Shown here one piece after another: positions 8,364 through 55,664 of a DNA stretch of 55,664 nucleotides. The notes beneath the pieces are model-generated. The model did no database searches. It worked only from the letters and a program-made list of their open reading frames with translations, and was not told where the DNA came from. Every line of letters begins with the position of its first letter. Positions within the stretch are counted from its first letter, which is position 1. Made by a program: the position numbers and the translations under genes. Origin of the DNA: a virus. The stretch covers positions 1 to 55,664 of the IMG/VR virus record IMGVR_UViG_3300048908_000262. One strand, written 5' to 3'.

Positions 8364-8444
8364 ATGTCAGGGAACGGCTGGCTGATTTGGATGCTGGTGC
8401 TGGCCGTTGTCGTGATGGTTGGCGTGACGTTGAGGGGCCTATGA
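8364..8444 (+). CDS. 26-residue membrane mini-protein
   Basis: A short frame (MSGNGWLIWMLVLAVVVMVG, then TLRGL) starts one base after the upstream stop and consists of a single transmembrane helix with a short basic end. The tight spacing and clean hydrophobic profile support it as a real gene, but it is short and has no independent ribosome site. It could be an anchor or a modulator of the neighbouring exported proteins. Confidence 0.42.
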   Translation: MSGNGWLIWMLVLAVVVMVGVTLRGL

Positions 8445-8483
8445 AAAACCGGAATCGGTTAGGGGCGACCCTGACTGATAGTT

Positions 8484-8499
8484 CGGCACGGCCGTGCCG
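8484..8499. repeat. 16-bp perfect palindrome upstream of exported-protein gene 2
   Basis: CGGCACGGCCGTGCCG is self-complementary and lies 24 bases upstream of the ATG at 8523, next to the hairpin AACCG-GAAT-CGGTT near 8447-8460. It could be an operator or part of a structured leader. No promoter hexamers are obvious. Confidence 0.4.
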
Positions 8500-8522
8500 G
8501 GCTCGATCAGAGGAGTGCATGC

Positions 8523-9218
8523 ATGCATAAAAAACTGTTGCTCACCGCTGTCGCCGTTGCGGCAGTGGTGGGAACGATTGCCACCGCGAGGGCGGCGTCA
8601 ATCACCTTCACCGCGTCGGAAGACGGCGGTGCTACTCAGACTATCGCTACCGGGCAGTCGTCGGCCACGTTGGGGCCGGTGGTGTTCGGCGACTTCACCA
8701 TCCTGGCTACCGGGGCGACCCAGGGCACGCTGCCTGCTCCTGGGATTCTTCAGGGCCAGACTATCGACATCCAGTCGCAGAGCACGACCTCGCATACCCT
8801 GGACCTCCAGGTGCTGGGTATCGGCGTGACCGGCTCTGGGCTGTCGGCTCTGCTCAGTGGCTTCGACGCCACCGGGTTGTCGAGCGGCTGGACCGCAACG
8901 ATTTCGACCGATATCAACAATCAGATCATCGCGTCGTCAACGTTCACCGGGCCGGTCAGCGGCGGCCACGATTCCAGCTTGAACGCCTTCAATTTGCCGG
9001 GGACGTTCAACGCCAGTGTCGATTTCCACATCGTCACCACCGGTGCCGGTGCGGCCAATCTCGGTGGCGCGCTGTCGGCGTCGGCAGCGGCGGTGCCTGG
9101 ACCCCTTGCCGGTGCTGGCTTGCCCGGGTTGATCTTCGGCGGGCTCGCGCTCTGGGGTGCGTGGAAACAGAAACGCCGTGCGGGTGGTTCTGTCCCCGCT
9201 AACGCTATCGGTGCCTAA
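8523..9218 (+). CDS. Exported protein with PEP-CTERM-like sorting tail (2)
   Basis: This 231-residue protein is built like the first exported protein: a signal peptide (residues ~1-24, cut near ARA), a low-charge beta-type body rich in Ser, Thr and Gly, and a C-terminal tail from residue 191 with VPGPLAGAGLPGL, a hydrophobic helix, then KQKRR. Unlike the first, about ten residues follow the basic cluster. The body is not closely similar to the first, so they share the sorting module rather than being a simple duplication. AGGAG precedes the start, and a strong hairpin follows the stop. Confidence 0.75.
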   Translation: MHKKLLLTAVAVAAVVGTIATARAASITFTASEDGGATQTIATGQSSATLGPVVFGDFTILATGATQGTLPAPGILQGQTIDIQSQSTTSHTLDLQVLGIGVTGSGLSALLSGFDATGLSSGWTATISTDINNQIIASSTFTGPVSGGHDSSLNAFNLPGTFNASVDFHIVTTGAGAANLGGALSASAAAVPGPLAGAGLPGLIFGGLALWGAWKQKRRAGGSVPANAIGA

Positions 9219-31415: not shown

Positions 31416-32608
31416 GCCGGTGCAATTCCGGTAACCAGCGGGCCGAAGCGACCGTTGGCGTCGATCACGTTGCGCGGTTCTAATTCACGATGTCTTTTGG
31501 CGTCTTTGTAAATGACATAGGCGGCGACCAGCGGATGCACGCCGCCACCGAAATTGACAGTGATCACCGGCGGCAGCCGATAGGCAAGCTGGTTCATCGT
31601 GGTGCGAAACTGGGTGACGTACTTTTCCAATTCGAGGTACAGCACGTTGTCGCATTCGTCGTAAGCTTTTTGCGCTTCGTCGTCGAACACCGCAGCGACC
31701 TGATCCATGGTGTTGAGCGCGTCATCGACCGTGGCGTACCGCATCGCCATTGCCGCTTCGGCCATGCCGACGGCAGCGAGGAGGCGATGTCGCTGCAACA
31801 CCGCCTCCTCGCTCTCTTGCGCAGCCCCCGCTGGTAGCGTCGACGTAAACGCCGCGATGTTGGCCAATTTGCGCATCGTGGTATAGCGCGTCGGTGCGTC
31901 TTGGATATTCACCGCCACGGCGTTGAACCCGTAGGCCAGCGCGGCATCGACCTTCTGCGGCATCGCCGCGAGCCCGGCATCGGTGGCGACTTCCTGCATC
32001 TTTGCCACGTTGCGCCAATCCTGCGCCGGAGCGTCGGCAGGCAGCGCCAACGCAACTGTCGTCGCCACGGTACTGATCAACATTTGTGTGGTGGCGATCA
32101 CGTCCTGCTGCCACGGCTGCGACACAAAGAACGTGCGGTAGCCCGCAAAGAACGATGCCTGCGATGCCCCGGCGAGCCCGGTGGAAATGATGCCGAACAG
32201 CGCATTGCCCAGGCTGCCGAGCCCGCCCGCGACATTGGCTTCGACGAAGTCGAGCGAGACACGAGTCTCGCCGGGCTCCTCCGGCGTGTCTTTGACGGTG
32301 ACGCTGCGACAGGCCACCATAACGGTGCCCGCCGTGGGATGCACCAGCATCCCCGGTCCCGGCGATTGACAAGCCTGAAACAGAGCTTGAGACGCGGCGA
32401 CATGATCGTCATCGCGGAAAACAGCGTTGAGTTTGTACAGCCTGATCTTGCGGCCGAGATCGCAATATGCGGTGTCCTCGCCGAACGGAAATTCACCTTC
32501 GGCACCACGGCGGCCGCCTTCGGCATCGGCATCGATGCAGTCGAACAACACACCTTTGAACGACGCCGGGACGTAACCGCGACCGATGGCACAGTTGGAT
32601 CTAGACAT
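31412..32608 (-). CDS. DNA circularisation N-terminal domain protein, gp43-like
   Basis: This 398-residue protein matches Mu gp43/gpN, whose N-terminal domain is labelled DNA circularisation protein and which is part of the tail tip. ASFKGVLFDCIDADAEGGRR, then GRKIRLYKLNAVF and an SPGPGMLVHPTAG stretch are diagnostic. The remainder is helical. It follows the tape-measure gene as in Mu but is separated from it by 140 bases with two hairpins. Confidence 0.78.
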   Translation of the reverse strand: MSRSNCAIGRGYVPASFKGVLFDCIDADAEGGRRGAEGEFPFGEDTAYCDLGRKIRLYKLNAVFRDDDHVAASQALFQACQSPGPGMLVHPTAGTVMVACRSVTVKDTPEEPGETRVSLDFVEANVAGGLGSLGNALFGIISTGLAGASQASFFAGYRTFFVSQPWQQDVIATTQMLISTVATTVALALPADAPAQDWRNVAKMQEVATDAGLAAMPQKVDAALAYGFNAVAVNIQDAPTRYTTMRKLANIAAFTSTLPAGAAQESEEAVLQRHRLLAAVGMAEAAMAMRYATVDDALNTMDQVAAVFDDEAQKAYDECDNVLYLELEKYVTQFRTTMNQLAYRLPPVITVNFGGGVHPLVAAYVIYKDAKRHRELEPRNVIDANGRFGPLVTGIAPA

Positions 32609-32628
32609 TTTTGTTTAGTTCGCTTTTT

Positions 32629-32702
32629 CAACTTTATGACCGTGGTCATAAAGTTGATTTTCATCAGTCGGGCGAAGCCGGGTGGATCAACCCGGCTTCG
32701 CC
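32629..32702. terminator. Two hairpins between tape measure and gp43-like genes
   Basis: Two strong inverted repeats lie in the 140-base gap. CAACTTTATGAC (32629-32640) pairs with GTCATAAAGTTG (32645-32656), and GGCGAAGCCGGGT (32671-32683) pairs perfectly with ACCCGGCTTCGCC (32690-32702). They may reduce read-through, mark an RNA-processing site or act on either strand. Confidence 0.5.
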
Positions 32703-32748
32703 GCTGATTCAGCACCCAGGCAAGGCTGCTGGAGTGGGTGCCAAATTC

Positions 32749-35664
32749 CTACTCAGTTTTCTGCGCGCCCGCGTCGGGCTTGCCGCCGCTTTGGCTGACA
32801 TTGATGTGAACATTCGCGGCGGCAGCCGAAATCGCGGCGGCTGCGGCGGCACCATAGGCCGCGCCCGCAGCAAGAGCGCCCGAAGCAATGATCGATGCAG
32901 CCTGACTGCCGCCTTCCGCTAGCGACGAAGCAGCGGCCTGGATTTGCCCGGCACCCGTACTCAGCCCAGTTTGCAGTGTAGTTGCTGCCTCGCTCACCTT
33001 GGTCGCATCCTCGCTCCAGGGAGTTGCTGGCGGCGGCTCGACCGTTGGCACTGCCGGAACTTCGGTGCCCGGCACCCACGGCAGCGCCGGTGGCGGTCCA
33101 GCAGTGGTGACCGGCACGCCTTCGGGGCGGCCGTCCTCGATGACGCGAACCCCCTTCTCGTTCGCCTTCTCGGTGCCATCTCTAACGCCCTGTTCGATCT
33201 CAGCGGCGGGTGTCGGTTCAGGCGGTTTTTCTTCCGGCGGCTTTGGCTTCTGGTCCAGACCCAACTTCGTCCTAAGCTCGTCGATCTCGCGTAGATTCCT
33301 ACCGATTTCTACTTGCAGCTTTGTTCGCTCAGCCTCGATCTTTGTCTTCAAAGATTCAGGCATCTCACCTTTGTGACGCCGCATGTAATTTAGTTCACTA
33401 GGCGTGGCCAAGCCTTCGGGGATCTTGTGTTCCTCGGCTATCGCCGCTAGCCGTTTGAAATCCTCGGCAAGTTTGGCCTGTTTGAAATCAAGATCAGATC
33501 GAGCTTTCGCCGCCACTTGGGCTTCCGGCGAAAGTGGAGTCATAAACCTTCTGAACACGCCCCAAGCAAGCTCAGCAGCTTCAACAGGGAGCCTGATTTG
33601 GGGTGGAGCCGCTTTTATAAGATCATCGACGACCTTACTTGCCGCGTTCTCCTTCTTGGCATCGCCTTCTTTTTTATCCTTATCCAAATTCGGCAGCTCA
33701 ATGCCGAACAGTTTAGCAAGTCCTGCTGCGGCACTGCTCAACAAACCGCCTGCCTTCAACAGCTCTGGCCCCGCCGCGATCATTGCGCCAGCTCCTGCCG
33801 TCGCTATCGCCCCGGGAACGTTACCTTCAGCCAATTGTTTGGCGGCATATAATTCAGTAATTCCTCCCAACCCGGCAAAGATAGTTCGATAATCGTCTGG
33901 CCCCAGCGTTCCCTTCCGGCTTTTCTCTTCGATGTCAGCCGCCTGGGTGGCAAGACCTTTGCGAATCGATTCAGTCATGGGTATCGCCGCTTTCAACAGC
34001 GGCTTGACGAACTCGGCAGTGGTGGACTGCAACTGACTTTCCAGCGTGGCGAACTGAACACGCGGGCTGTCCGCCGTGAGCCGACGAATATCCTCTGGTT
34101 TACCGGAGCGCAGGTCGGCTTGATCGAGCTTCTGCTTGATTTCTTTGTAGTTATATAAAAACGCAGCGATGGCGTCGACCGCAGTGCGATCACCCGCCAC
34201 TTTGGCTGCCGCCTCATACGCCCCTTCCGCCGTGGTGGTGTCGAGCCCCCACTTACGCTTGGCGATGTCGGCAAAACTTTCAACTATTGGCCGTTCTCTG
34301 CCTTTCTTGTCTTTTCCCATGATGTACTGGCCGGTCGCGGGATCACGCAGACCCTCGCCCAACCATTTTGGCAGATCGTGCAGCAGCAAATTCTTACTGG
34401 CTTCGGTCTGTGCCCGGCCGAGCCCGGCCGCCATCTGGTTGGCATTGATCGCCTTGGTGATGCCACGGCCAGAGAGTTGCTTGACGGCTTGGTTGTAGCC
34501 GACGGCGGCGCGAGTGCCGATATCTTCACCGAGCAGCAAAGTCGCGCCGATGGCGCGCCAATCGGCAGCGTATTTCGAGCCCGACATGTATTTCGAGATC
34601 TGCCGGAAGAAGCCGCCGGTCATTTCCTTGCCGATTTCCGGCGCGATCTTCTGCAAATACTCGACAGATTCCGCCAGTCGTCCTTCTGAGAACGGGGCGT
34701 TTGGAAAATCTTTTACCTTAGTTCCGGGCGCAAATTCTCCGCGAGCAATCGCTTGGTCCATCTGCTCTTGATTGTGGATGTTGATGCGGCCCATCGCATC
34801 AAGACCCTTGATGTAGTTGTAAGCGTTGTCGGTCGCCTGCTCCATCGAGCCGCCGAGCAGGAAGTTGGTACGCGCCAGCTCTTCGACTTGGCTGACCATT
34901 TTCGCGGTTTTTTCGGGATCGGCGGTGATACCGAACGCTTCGGACGCGACCTGTTTGCGTTGAGCCAGATTGAAAAACGCACCGCCAGCACCTTTAACAG
35001 CGATTCCCTCCGGGCCGTACAGCTTCTCCTTCTCCTCACCAATACGTTTTATATCTTCCCGGAAAGCCGCCTCTGCTCCTGGCGTCTTCGTCACAGTATC
35101 GATCTGCTTCATCCGCAACGCCTGTTCGGCGATGTCAGACTCTTCGATGCCTTTCTTGGTTTCGCGGCCTAGATGATGAGCAATGGCGGCTGCGGTGACA
35201 CCAGCGAAACCGCCAAGACCGGCGGCAAAGCCGTAGCCGATATGGGGAGGAAGGCCGATACCGCCGCCACGCTGCCGTGCCGGTGCTGCAGCGGCCCGCT
35301 GTGCCGCAGCAGCGCGCTGTGCTGCTTGTACTGGTTGACGCGCTGCCAAAGCCGCCTGCTGATTGGCGCGCGTCATGTAGGTCGCCATCCGCTGCGCTTG
35401 GTTGGCAGCTTGCTGCAACCCACTCACCTGAGTGCCGATGCTGAAACCGCTGGATGCCGACTTAGCACGCAGCAGTTCCCGGTTCAGGCTGCGGAGATTA
35501 CGAATTGCGTTCTGGATGCCCTTATCCTGAACGCTGATACTGACACTGACGCTCTTTAACGACCTTGCAGTCGCTTGCAACTTGCGGAGTTCAGCGTTGA
35601 TCTTGTTGATCGCGCCGCTGGACTCATCAATTACTTTGAGCGTTGCACTTTCGATGAAGGACAT
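32749..35664 (-). CDS. Tape measure protein
   Basis: This 971-residue protein is the longest in the window. It has an N-terminal helical region rich in Ala and Gln (residues ~1-135), a long central helical body, short hydrophobic stretches near residues ~150-165 and ~610-650, and a Pro- and Ala-rich C-terminal region. It sets the tail length and passes into the host membrane. Its ATG follows directly after the stop of the frameshifted chaperone, which is the classic tail gene order. Confidence 0.88.
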   Translation of the reverse strand: MSFIESATLKVIDESSGAINKINAELRKLQATARSLKSVSVSISVQDKGIQNAIRNLRSLNRELLRAKSASSGFSIGTQVSGLQQAANQAQRMATYMTRANQQAALAARQPVQAAQRAAAAQRAAAAPARQRGGGIGLPPHIGYGFAAGLGGFAGVTAAAIAHHLGRETKKGIEESDIAEQALRMKQIDTVTKTPGAEAAFREDIKRIGEEKEKLYGPEGIAVKGAGGAFFNLAQRKQVASEAFGITADPEKTAKMVSQVEELARTNFLLGGSMEQATDNAYNYIKGLDAMGRINIHNQEQMDQAIARGEFAPGTKVKDFPNAPFSEGRLAESVEYLQKIAPEIGKEMTGGFFRQISKYMSGSKYAADWRAIGATLLLGEDIGTRAAVGYNQAVKQLSGRGITKAINANQMAAGLGRAQTEASKNLLLHDLPKWLGEGLRDPATGQYIMGKDKKGRERPIVESFADIAKRKWGLDTTTAEGAYEAAAKVAGDRTAVDAIAAFLYNYKEIKQKLDQADLRSGKPEDIRRLTADSPRVQFATLESQLQSTTAEFVKPLLKAAIPMTESIRKGLATQAADIEEKSRKGTLGPDDYRTIFAGLGGITELYAAKQLAEGNVPGAIATAGAGAMIAAGPELLKAGGLLSSAAAGLAKLFGIELPNLDKDKKEGDAKKENAASKVVDDLIKAAPPQIRLPVEAAELAWGVFRRFMTPLSPEAQVAAKARSDLDFKQAKLAEDFKRLAAIAEEHKIPEGLATPSELNYMRRHKGEMPESLKTKIEAERTKLQVEIGRNLREIDELRTKLGLDQKPKPPEEKPPEPTPAAEIEQGVRDGTEKANEKGVRVIEDGRPEGVPVTTAGPPPALPWVPGTEVPAVPTVEPPPATPWSEDATKVSEAATTLQTGLSTGAGQIQAAASSLAEGGSQAASIIASGALAAGAAYGAAAAAAISAAAANVHINVSQSGGKPDAGAQKTE

Positions 35665-51492: not shown

Positions 51493-51987
51493 TCACGCCC
51501 GTACAACCTTGGCAATGGTGGTGCGAATGCGCGCTCCACCCAACAATGGCATTAGCAGGGTGAGGCTTTTGTCCGACGATTGGGTCACAAAAGCCTCGAT
51601 ATTGCTGAGAATCTTGTCGTTGATCCTGACTTTTTCGCCGATTTTGTAGTTTTCGTTGAGAATTCCACTCTTTTCCGCGTCCATCAGCGCCTGGATGACC
51701 CGATTGGGAGCCCGCCACAGATTGCCGTTCTCGCCGCCCAGCACGACACGGTCGCTCCTGATGAACCCTTGGCATGCCCTGAGGATGGTCTTGTCGAGTT
51801 CCGAGAACGGCAGCAGCAGGTAACGCGAGAACAACGGGTACTTTCGCCACTGCGCCGTCCCCTCGACGACCTGCATACGCAGCACCTGAGGCAGGTATGG
51901 GTGCTTCTCGAAACGAATCAGTTCGTTGTAAGCAGTGTACTCGCGGCTCGCCTCGGTGACGAGCGCGACCCAATCGTTGCGCGCCAT
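51493..51987 (-). CDS. NusG/RfaH-like transcription antitermination factor
   Basis: This 164-residue protein has the NusG layout. The N-terminal NGN domain shows WVALVTEASREYTAYNELIR, then YLPQVLRM and the PLFSRYLLLPF loop; residues ~110-160 are the KOW domain (KIGEKVRINDKILSNIEAFV, ending LLMPLLGGARIRT). NusG paralogs bind the RNA polymerase clamp and reduce pausing and termination. It is the first gene of the ~35-kb late operon, which suggests it drives full-length late transcription. AGGGG lies eight bases before the ATG. Confidence 0.72.
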   Translation of the reverse strand: MARNDWVALVTEASREYTAYNELIRFEKHPYLPQVLRMQVVEGTAQWRKYPLFSRYLLLPFSELDKTILRACQGFIRSDRVVLGGENGNLWRAPNRVIQALMDAEKSGILNENYKIGEKVRINDKILSNIEAFVTQSSDKSLTLLMPLLGGARIRTTIAKVVRA

Positions 51988-52140
51988 AGTACCAACCCCT
52001 GGATAATGTTGTGGAAGGGGCTAGTTGTCGCTTAAATTAGTGGCGGCGTCGAGGCGTTGTGCGAGCCTTTTGTCCTGGTGGTACTGAGGATGTTGGTACT
52101 GAGGATGTTGGTACTGAGGATGTTGGTACTGAAAATGTTG
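51985..52140 (-). promoter_or_regulatory. Repeat-bearing 5' leader of the NusG-like gene
   Basis: Four copies of a 15-bp unit lie at 52081-52140; read on the plus strand each is GTACTGAGGATGTTG, with two changes in the last. The junctions give three exact copies of GTTGGTACT (52092, 52107, 52122). The inverse, AGTACCAAC, occurs at 51988-51996 directly before the ATG. In the leftward RNA each repeat could pair with the ribosome-binding region. It could also be an array of protein-binding sites. Confidence 0.5.
52081..52140. repeat. Four 15-bp direct repeats
   Basis: The unit GTACTGAGGATGTTG is repeated at 52081, 52096 and 52111. The fourth copy, at 52126, reads GTACTGAAAATGTTG. There are no spacers, so this is not a CRISPR array. 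The 15-bp period is about one and a half helical turns. Confidence 0.9.
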
Positions 52141-53427: not shown

Positions 53428-53468
53428 TTGCCTATTCCTTTCGTTTGGTTTCGATAATGAATAGAATA

Positions 53469-53490
53469 GACATTATGTCTAATCATTCAA
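53469..53490 (-). promoter_or_regulatory. Operator-promoter d (divergent pair, leftward)
   Basis: On the minus strand TTGAAT (53490-53485) precedes the palindrome GACATAATGTC (53479-53469), which is directly followed by a TATTCT-like -10. The 15-bp core TAGACA-NNN-TGTCTA is perfect. It faces operator-promoter e about 60 bases away, so both may be bound together. Confidence 0.7.
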
Positions 53491-54132: not shown

Positions 54133-54162
54133 TTGCAATTGATTAGACACTATGTCTATATA
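54133..54162 (+). promoter_or_regulatory. Operator-promoter f
   Basis: TTGCAA (54133-54138), a spacer of 18 bp and TATATA (54157-54162) surround the perfect core TAGACA-CTA-TGTCTA (GACACTATGTC, 54146-54156). It is the best match to the family consensus and drives the ArdC-like gene. Confidence 0.78.
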
Positions 54163-55105: not shown

Positions 55106-55360
55106 ATGAAAGCTTTTCTAATCGCCGCCGCGTTGCTAGGTAGCGTGGCCATCATGACCGCCTCACCTGACAAACCCGCAACCGCAATGCCCGAGGTACT
55201 CGTGGAGCACACGCCCCTGATCAGCGAACGTGACGCCTTCACTGCTAAGCTTGTCGCCTTGGGCTTTACCGCGCAAGCGCACCCGGAACCAACGCCGCAT
55301 AGCAAGCATCATCGTTGGCCTAGACGCGGCCGCCACCATTTCAAGCGTCACCACCACTAG
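55106..55360 (+). CDS. Exported His-rich protein
   Basis: This 84-residue protein has an N-terminal signal peptide or anchor (residues 1-18) and a C-terminal His- and Arg-rich tail (residues ~62-84, including RRGRHHFKRHHH). The tail could bind metal or nucleic acid. AAAGGAA precedes the ATG. It probably shares the ArdC transcript. The family is not recognised. Confidence 0.6.
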   Translation: MKAFLIAAALLGSVAIMTASPDKPATAMPEVLVEHTPLISERDAFTAKLVALGFTAQAHPEPTPHSKHHRWPRRGRHHFKRHHH

Positions 55361-55391: not shown

Positions 55392-55421
55392 TTGCAATCG
55401 ATTAGACACCGTGTCATATAT
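55392..55421 (+). promoter_or_regulatory. Operator-promoter g
   Basis: TTGCAA (55392-55397) and ATATAT (55416-55421) flank a spacer with the perfect palindrome GACACCGTGTC (55405-55415). It leads into the hairpin-rich segment, with a predicted start of transcription near 55428. Confidence 0.75.
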
Positions 55422-55427
55422 GGATAG

Positions 55428-55664
55428 TCAGAGGCGAGGGACTGCAGCCCTTGCCTCTGACGGACGCAAGGCCGGTTCCCGCAAGGGGAAGGGTCAAGAG
55501 AGCGGGAACCGGCAGGGAGCTTGGTTCCGGGTCAAGGGGAAGGGAAGGAAATCCCGGAACCAAGCGAAGCGGGGAGGTTGGCAATGGGGCCAGCCTCCGG
55601 CGGCCCGGGAGGGCCGTGCGGCAGCGAAGGCAGCGCGCGATGGCGCGGCGGCCGCCGCGCCATC
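55428..55664 (+). ncRNA. Candidate structured RNA with six consecutive hairpins
   Basis: Directly after operator-promoter g, six inverted repeats follow with short linkers. H1 is 55428-55440/55448-55460. H2 is 55471-55482/55502-55513, a perfect 12-bp stem. H3 is 55521-55531/55553-55563, a perfect 11-bp stem. H4 is 55573-55582/55589-55598, H5 is 55601-55616 with a GGGA tetraloop, and H6 is 55639-55664, a perfect palindrome. H2 and H3 are related, and both loops contain AAGGGGAAGGG. No long frame exists, though an ATG at 55584 after GGGGAGG opens to the window end, so this may instead be a structured leader. Confidence 0.55.

Follow-up and report, generated by a model that had tools for sequence, protein, structure and literature searches.

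What does the GC-rich row of hairpins at the right end of this viral record represent, and what might an RNA transcribed from it do? The stretch of DNA analysed (the window) is the entire record IMGVR_UViG_3300048908_000262, which comprises 55,664 bases and is classed as linear. It derives from an uncultivated myovirus, and the RNA considered here is defined from sequence alone.

Genomic setting and the operator-promoter

The record carries genes for the tail sheath, baseplate hub, portal and large terminase, and base 1 of the window falls within a DNA polymerase gene. A second contig, L053, belongs to the same virus (100% identity across the available overlap) and extends for 9,213 bases beyond the left end of the window, but has no overlap with the right end; the genome is, therefore, at least about 65 kb in size, and the sequence past 55664 is missing from the record. 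No other contig was found to bridge the right end via the primase gene. In the additional sequence provided by L053, a DNA polymerase frame of 973 aa (L053:6782-9703) reads through a stretch that, by eye, resembles an intein, starting with CLGADTRVLTNNG and ending with VHN before CGYQGG; within this stretch, but in another frame, lies a 255-aa frame (L053:8278-9045) with the look, again by eye, of an HNH-type endonuclease.

Among named phages, those most closely related are Synechococcus phage Yong-L2-223 and the Agrobacterium phages Milano, OLIVR4 and 7-7-1. In Yong-L2-223, the equivalent stretch consists of small early genes flanked by a NusG-like gene and the primase, and this synteny places the RNA stretch in what would be the early-gene block. 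Given the Agrobacterium phages among the relatives, and given that phages of Caulobacter and Brevundimonas encode relatives of ArdC, our guess is that the host is an alphaproteobacterium. The 15-mer TGGTACTGAGGATGT occurs four times in tandem at 52079-52140, immediately outside the NusG-like gene of the window (51493-51987) on its 5' side.

An 84-codon frame stops at 55360 and is followed by the promoter (Table 1), for which the first transcribed base is predicted at about 55427, namely base 1 of hairpin 1. The recognisable promoter of the preliminary description is borne out in the form of an operator-promoter that is shared with ardC: the same TTGCAAT-GATTAGACAC-TGTC arrangement is present upstream of that gene, at 54133. 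A generic sigma-70 scan of the window did not list the promoter of the RNA. Further copies of the operator-like dyad lie at 2510, 52593 (minus strand), 53464, 53543 and 54141; with up to three mismatches there are 11 sites in all, versus 2.9 expected, and none of 100 shuffles gave as many. In the form GATTAGACACNNTGTC, the dyad recurs at early promoters (52593, 53464-53484, 53543, 54141 and 55400), which suggests that a single regulator may serve the early block. A search of viral contigs with the operator 19-mer retrieved the sister contig only.

Table 1. Coordinates of the promoter elements and predicted hairpins at the right end of the window
Feature	Position	Strand	Description
Promoter	55392..55420	+	TTGCAA 55392-55397, 17-nt spacer, CATATA 55415-55420; read from sequence
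Operator-like dyad GATTAGACACCGTGTC	55400..55415	+	Arms GACAC/GTGTC, inside the promoter
Hairpin 1	55427..55461	+	14 bp, one G-U pair; begins at the predicted first base of the transcript
Hairpin 2	55471..55513	+	12-bp stem, 19-nt loop AAGGGGAAGGGTCAAGAGA
Hairpin 3	55519..55565	+	13-bp stem, 21-nt loop TCAAGGGGAAGGGAAGGAAAT
Hairpin 4	55573..55598	+	10 bp; buries GGAGG 55573-55577; AUG 55584-55586 in the loop
Hairpin 5	55600..55617	+	7 bp; GGGA (GNRA-type) tetraloop, C-G closing pair
Hairpin 6	55618-55638		Weak
Perfect 26-base palindrome GATGGCGCGGCGGCCGCCGCGCCATC	55639..55664		At the extreme end of the record; either a hairpin or a fold-back from assembly

Predicted fold, strand and assembly

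The stretch 55427-55664 folds into six stable stems, as previously described, plus one weak stem. Its minimum free energy is -147.2 kcal/mol (z -8.67), and none of 200 shuffles was as stable; hairpins 1-4 taken alone gave a z of -8.73. When folding is regressed on dinucleotide content over the whole window, the excess is only moderate, with residuals of about -2.3 to -3.1 for the plus strand and -3.9 for the minus strand, owing to the extreme composition of the stretch, which is also among the most GC-rich folds: its GC content is 71%, versus 51% in the 2 kb upstream. Stems of at least 10 bp cluster more densely here than anywhere else in the window, and a survey of 1.6 Mb of related loci gave only two other distinct clusters (at least four such stems per 300 nt), both of them in AT-rich loci. 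A smaller GC-rich hairpin cluster surrounds the start of the gene at 8523 (window 8373-8570); it is present in L053 too, and recurs in the survey, at about 8.4 kb, via the sister contig. Other well-folded sites in the window lie at 32.6 kb and 53.4 kb. At the former, two strong adjacent hairpins on the minus strand between tail genes (32608-32749; z -7.75 for 32601-32800) are possibly a terminator or a regulatory RNA.

All of the departures from perfect pairing (in hairpins 1, 4 and 5, and at the site in hairpin 1 that differs in a further contig, L046, discussed below) are G-U pairs when read on the plus strand, where none is A-C, and would read as A-C on the minus strand. Moreover, the plus strand presents five stems of at least 10 bp, and the minus strand three of those. 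The exclusive use of G-U for the imperfections, taken with a plus-strand promoter whose predicted start coincides with the first base of hairpin 1, favours an RNA of the plus strand as the likely product, albeit from a small number of events. The same observations bear on whether the palindromes might instead serve at the level of DNA, as a replication, packaging or recombination site, with the RNA folding as a by-product. The stems are near-perfect inverted repeats, such that both strands fold well (z -8.6 for the minus strand), as would be expected of such an element; nevertheless, imperfections that are all G-U on one strand, the duplication of large asymmetric purine loops, and a location at +1 of a promoter make this explanation an unlikely one.

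L046, which is another contig of this virus, agrees with the right part of the window over 6330 bases with two differences, both of which lie inside the RNA: A55460 is replaced by G in hairpin 1, converting a U-A pair to U-G, and the other is in a linker. Both are structure-neutral, although by our own estimate the chance of this is roughly a quarter, and contig ends are error-prone. A 3-bp outer stem in the minimum free energy structure was dropped, since its pairing is broken by a C-to-A difference in L046. This contig supplies confirmation of hairpin 1 and, before it breaks off within hairpin 2, of the greater part of that hairpin; hairpin 3 onwards is seen in one assembly. Could some or all of the row of hairpins have arisen at the contig end as a chimera or a fold-back? 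The perfect 26-bp palindrome may itself be an assembly fold-back, as it coincides exactly with the end of the record, and the break of L046 inside hairpin 2 and the abrupt jump in GC content would be in keeping with a wider artefact. However, the agreement of L046 through hairpin 1 and the bulk of hairpin 2, and the fact that the differences between hairpins 2 and 3 look evolved, rather than these being plain copies, render an artefact improbable, a little more so than an element acting as DNA.

Coding potential and a possible cis-acting leader

The stretch has a non-coding look as far as the contig end, there being no codon periodicity: the GC content by codon position for 55462-55664 is 0.72/0.71/0.73, versus values that in phage genes typically lie near 0.6/0.45/0.77, and each of the six frames has a negative codon score. 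The GGGGAGG that the preliminary description regarded as buried in the fourth stem is indeed so, insofar as its GGAGG lies within hairpin 4, and a 6-nt spacing separates this Shine-Dalgarno (SD) sequence from the AUG in the loop. A normal coding gene starting at 55584, with a 5' end that is unstructured in relatives, was named among the findings that would refute a structured RNA; the frame from 55584 does not have the look of a gene: in it the second codon position is the richest in GC, which is the opposite of phage genes, and a comparable SD-plus-AUG occurs in 6.5% of shuffles. The SD-AUG at 55573-55586, therefore, probably starts no gene, although with 27 codons available this is suggestive and not final.

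These results weigh on the main rival to the reading that we develop below, namely that the hairpins form a cis-acting structured leader of an early operon, working either on RNA polymerase, by put-like antitermination, or on downstream translation; in its simplest form, hairpin 4 would hide the GGAGG and the AUG at 55584. The put RNA of phage HK022 is about 70 nt long, consists of two stem-loops with indents and bulges, and is found in copies under two promoters, with putL just downstream of an early promoter (PMC9378689); it binds the β' zinc-binding domain of RNA polymerase and suppresses termination. As with putL and putR, the hairpins of the window would lie in a nascent early phage transcript, with a start predicted from sequence alone at 55427, beneath the operator-promoter, and the position at +1 of an early promoter is that of putL (PMC9378689). 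Additionally, a SD sequence is suitably spaced from an AUG in the loop of hairpin 4, the phage encodes a NusG-like protein, and the RNA 3' end lies beyond the record, so the hairpins may lead a downstream gene. Set against this are the unfavourable codon-position composition of the 55584 frame and the frequency of the SD-AUG arrangement among shuffles. Moreover, in contrast to the bulged pair of stems in put (PMC9378689), the window RNA has large purine loops, a single promoter and, across 174-238 nt, four to six stems that are free of bulges, and ardC, which is under the same promoter arrangement, has a short and plain leader. On balance, we consider a cis-acting leader doubtful, but the best of the alternatives.

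The duplicated purine loop and its possible partners

A further feature of the row is the relationship between hairpins 2 and 3, which the preliminary description took to be homologous and to present the same purine loop. Their loops share an identical 12-base purine core, CAAGGGGAAGGG. When the two are aligned in structural register, nine of 12 pairs are the same and the other three are changed on both sides; hairpin 3 has one extra pair, and there is no one-sided stem difference. The claim of homology is, thus, upheld, the stems differing by paired changes only. The sequence AAGGGGAAGGG occurs as two exact copies, which are its sole matches in the window even at one mismatch; given that 0.55 are expected at this stringency and that 15 of 100 shuffles contain two or more, the count by itself is not significant, and the weight lies in the placement of the copies within two duplicated hairpins. 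A loop that is kept on a stem that is exchangeable would show the pattern of a loop-recognised element, the basis for this being two internal copies, rather than covariation across species. Indeed, of the covariation that was sought, a part is seen, between the two internal copies and in the one pairing-preserving difference of L046, whereas the part that would come from relatives is lacking, none having been found.

The predicted structure, the duplication with compensatory stem changes, the promoter sequence and the non-coding character are what the sequence shows. The reading that we favour, with a probability of roughly 45%, is that of a stable early phage RNA in which the repeated purine loop is offered for binding to a partner from the host or the phage; its transcription, its stability, its action in trans and the partner are what we infer. 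According to this model, the stretch would form the 5' portion of an early RNA that is non-coding and 238 nt or more in length; its transcription would proceed rightwards, within the group of small early genes, from a promoter under operator control. A hairpin at the 5' end is expected to shield an RNA from 5'-end-dependent decay, and hairpin 1, at the extreme 5' end, may protect the transcript in this way. Hairpins 2 and 3 would then present CAAGGGGAAGGG on interchangeable stems: as the stems can be exchanged and the loop is identical, the loop sequence is what has been kept, and it is likely to be where a protein or RNA partner, from host or phage, makes contact. The presence of two loop copies could raise avidity or serve to titrate that partner.

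Known RNAs provide several points of comparison. The preliminary description proposed that the loops might sequester CsrA/RsmA. As in CsrB and RsmX/Y/Z, there are GGA-containing loops and linkers in serial hairpins, the ANGGA motif is mildly enriched (five in 238 nt, versus 1.7 expected; p 0.019 by shuffling), and by position four of the five are in loops or linkers. Nonetheless, ANGGA is absent from the repeated 12-nt core and its copies are few, no CsrB or RsmX/Y/Z match was obtained in Rfam even at an E-value of 10, and CsrA is encoded by only 16 of 96 sampled alphaproteobacteria, the class guessed for the host. We, therefore, regard a sponge of the CsrA/RsmA type as the least probable of the explanations weighed here, and the proposal is not supported.

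A different precedent is provided by the Rhizobiales sRNAs SmelA075 and SmelA099, which carry a pyrimidine, anti-SD loop, CCUCCUCCC, in three to four hairpins (PMC3927594). They resemble the window RNA in having serial hairpins that repeat one loop motif on diverged stems, but differ in that the CAAGGGGAAGGG loops are purine on the likely transcribed strand, and so of a roughly complementary kind; no sequence homology was shown. The RNA could conceivably mirror such host hairpin sRNAs, or target another loop-binding factor, and soak up its partner early in infection, and this would constitute a new class of phage RNA decoy; we hold this to be very unlikely, scarcely more probable than the CsrA sponge. 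Pairing of the loops with pyrimidine-rich RNA, the other suggestion in the preliminary description, is conceivable. The predicted pairing of the loops to the 16S anti-SD or to the SmelA CCUCCUCCC loops is no better in energy than that of shuffled loops, and pairing as an SD decoy or an anti-SD sponge was, on these grounds, rejected.

As to the putative early RNA itself, the preliminary description recognised no known class of RNA, and this stands: the structured plus-strand RNA matches none described. Rfam gave no match of any kind for the window at gathering thresholds and nothing for the RNA stretch at an E-value of 10; weak minus-strand matches to CC1840 and 6C were dismissed as being at chance level. 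The absence of Rfam matches in the window extends to retron and group II intron RNAs, for which an enclosing structure and an adjacent reverse transcriptase would be expected; the record stops at 55664. Several phage-encoded RNAs, including VpdS, PreS and c4, act on host or phage regulation (PMC12197685); the window RNA has a phage origin in common with these, their relation having been compared via Rfam only. With blastn there was no match in phages, and in plasmids only 28-nt promoter-side matches, to five rhizobial plasmids (E 0.3-0.9). Pattern scans, which require exact matches although the stems may vary freely, gave 16 matches in viral contigs for the single hairpin, with the hairpin itself present in the sister contig alone, and for the double loop 18 viral stretches and at least 118 in genomes, these being mostly purine repeats, with none like these hairpins among the matches listed. 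A covariance model (R1) found strong matches among the loci surveyed to the window and L046 only, and to none of 385 alphaproteobacterial genomes (the host class itself being a guess). In the parts of Yong-L2-223 and Milano that were read, there was no equivalent hairpin row or operator, and a weak full-length match in Yong-L2-223 (E 4.7) was discarded, as it folds no better than shuffles. A 20-mer of hairpin 4, with core GGTTGGCAATGGGGCCAGCC, has one exact occurrence elsewhere, in a phage contig that is AT-rich and unrelated (L136:2049-2072), and folds as a hairpin there too; this is probably due to chance, with about 0.1 expected by a rough estimate.

The predicted structure is probably real and likely to be that of a plus-strand non-coding RNA, an orphan of plausible design from one virus with a truncated end, to which we would attribute a function only by inference. 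Early phage transcripts other than mRNAs are known in small numbers, usually from model phages. The present example offers a testable handle, in the form of a 12-base loop carried by each of two stems that are interchangeable, under an operator that an antirestriction gene shares, and if the RNA does bind a host factor, it would provide a new example of RNA-based host takeover. A motif resembling that of the loops is seen in another ardC-bearing viral contig (L004; ArdC 59% identical), where CAAGGGGAA occurs repeatedly just upstream of start codons, serving as a ribosome-binding leader.
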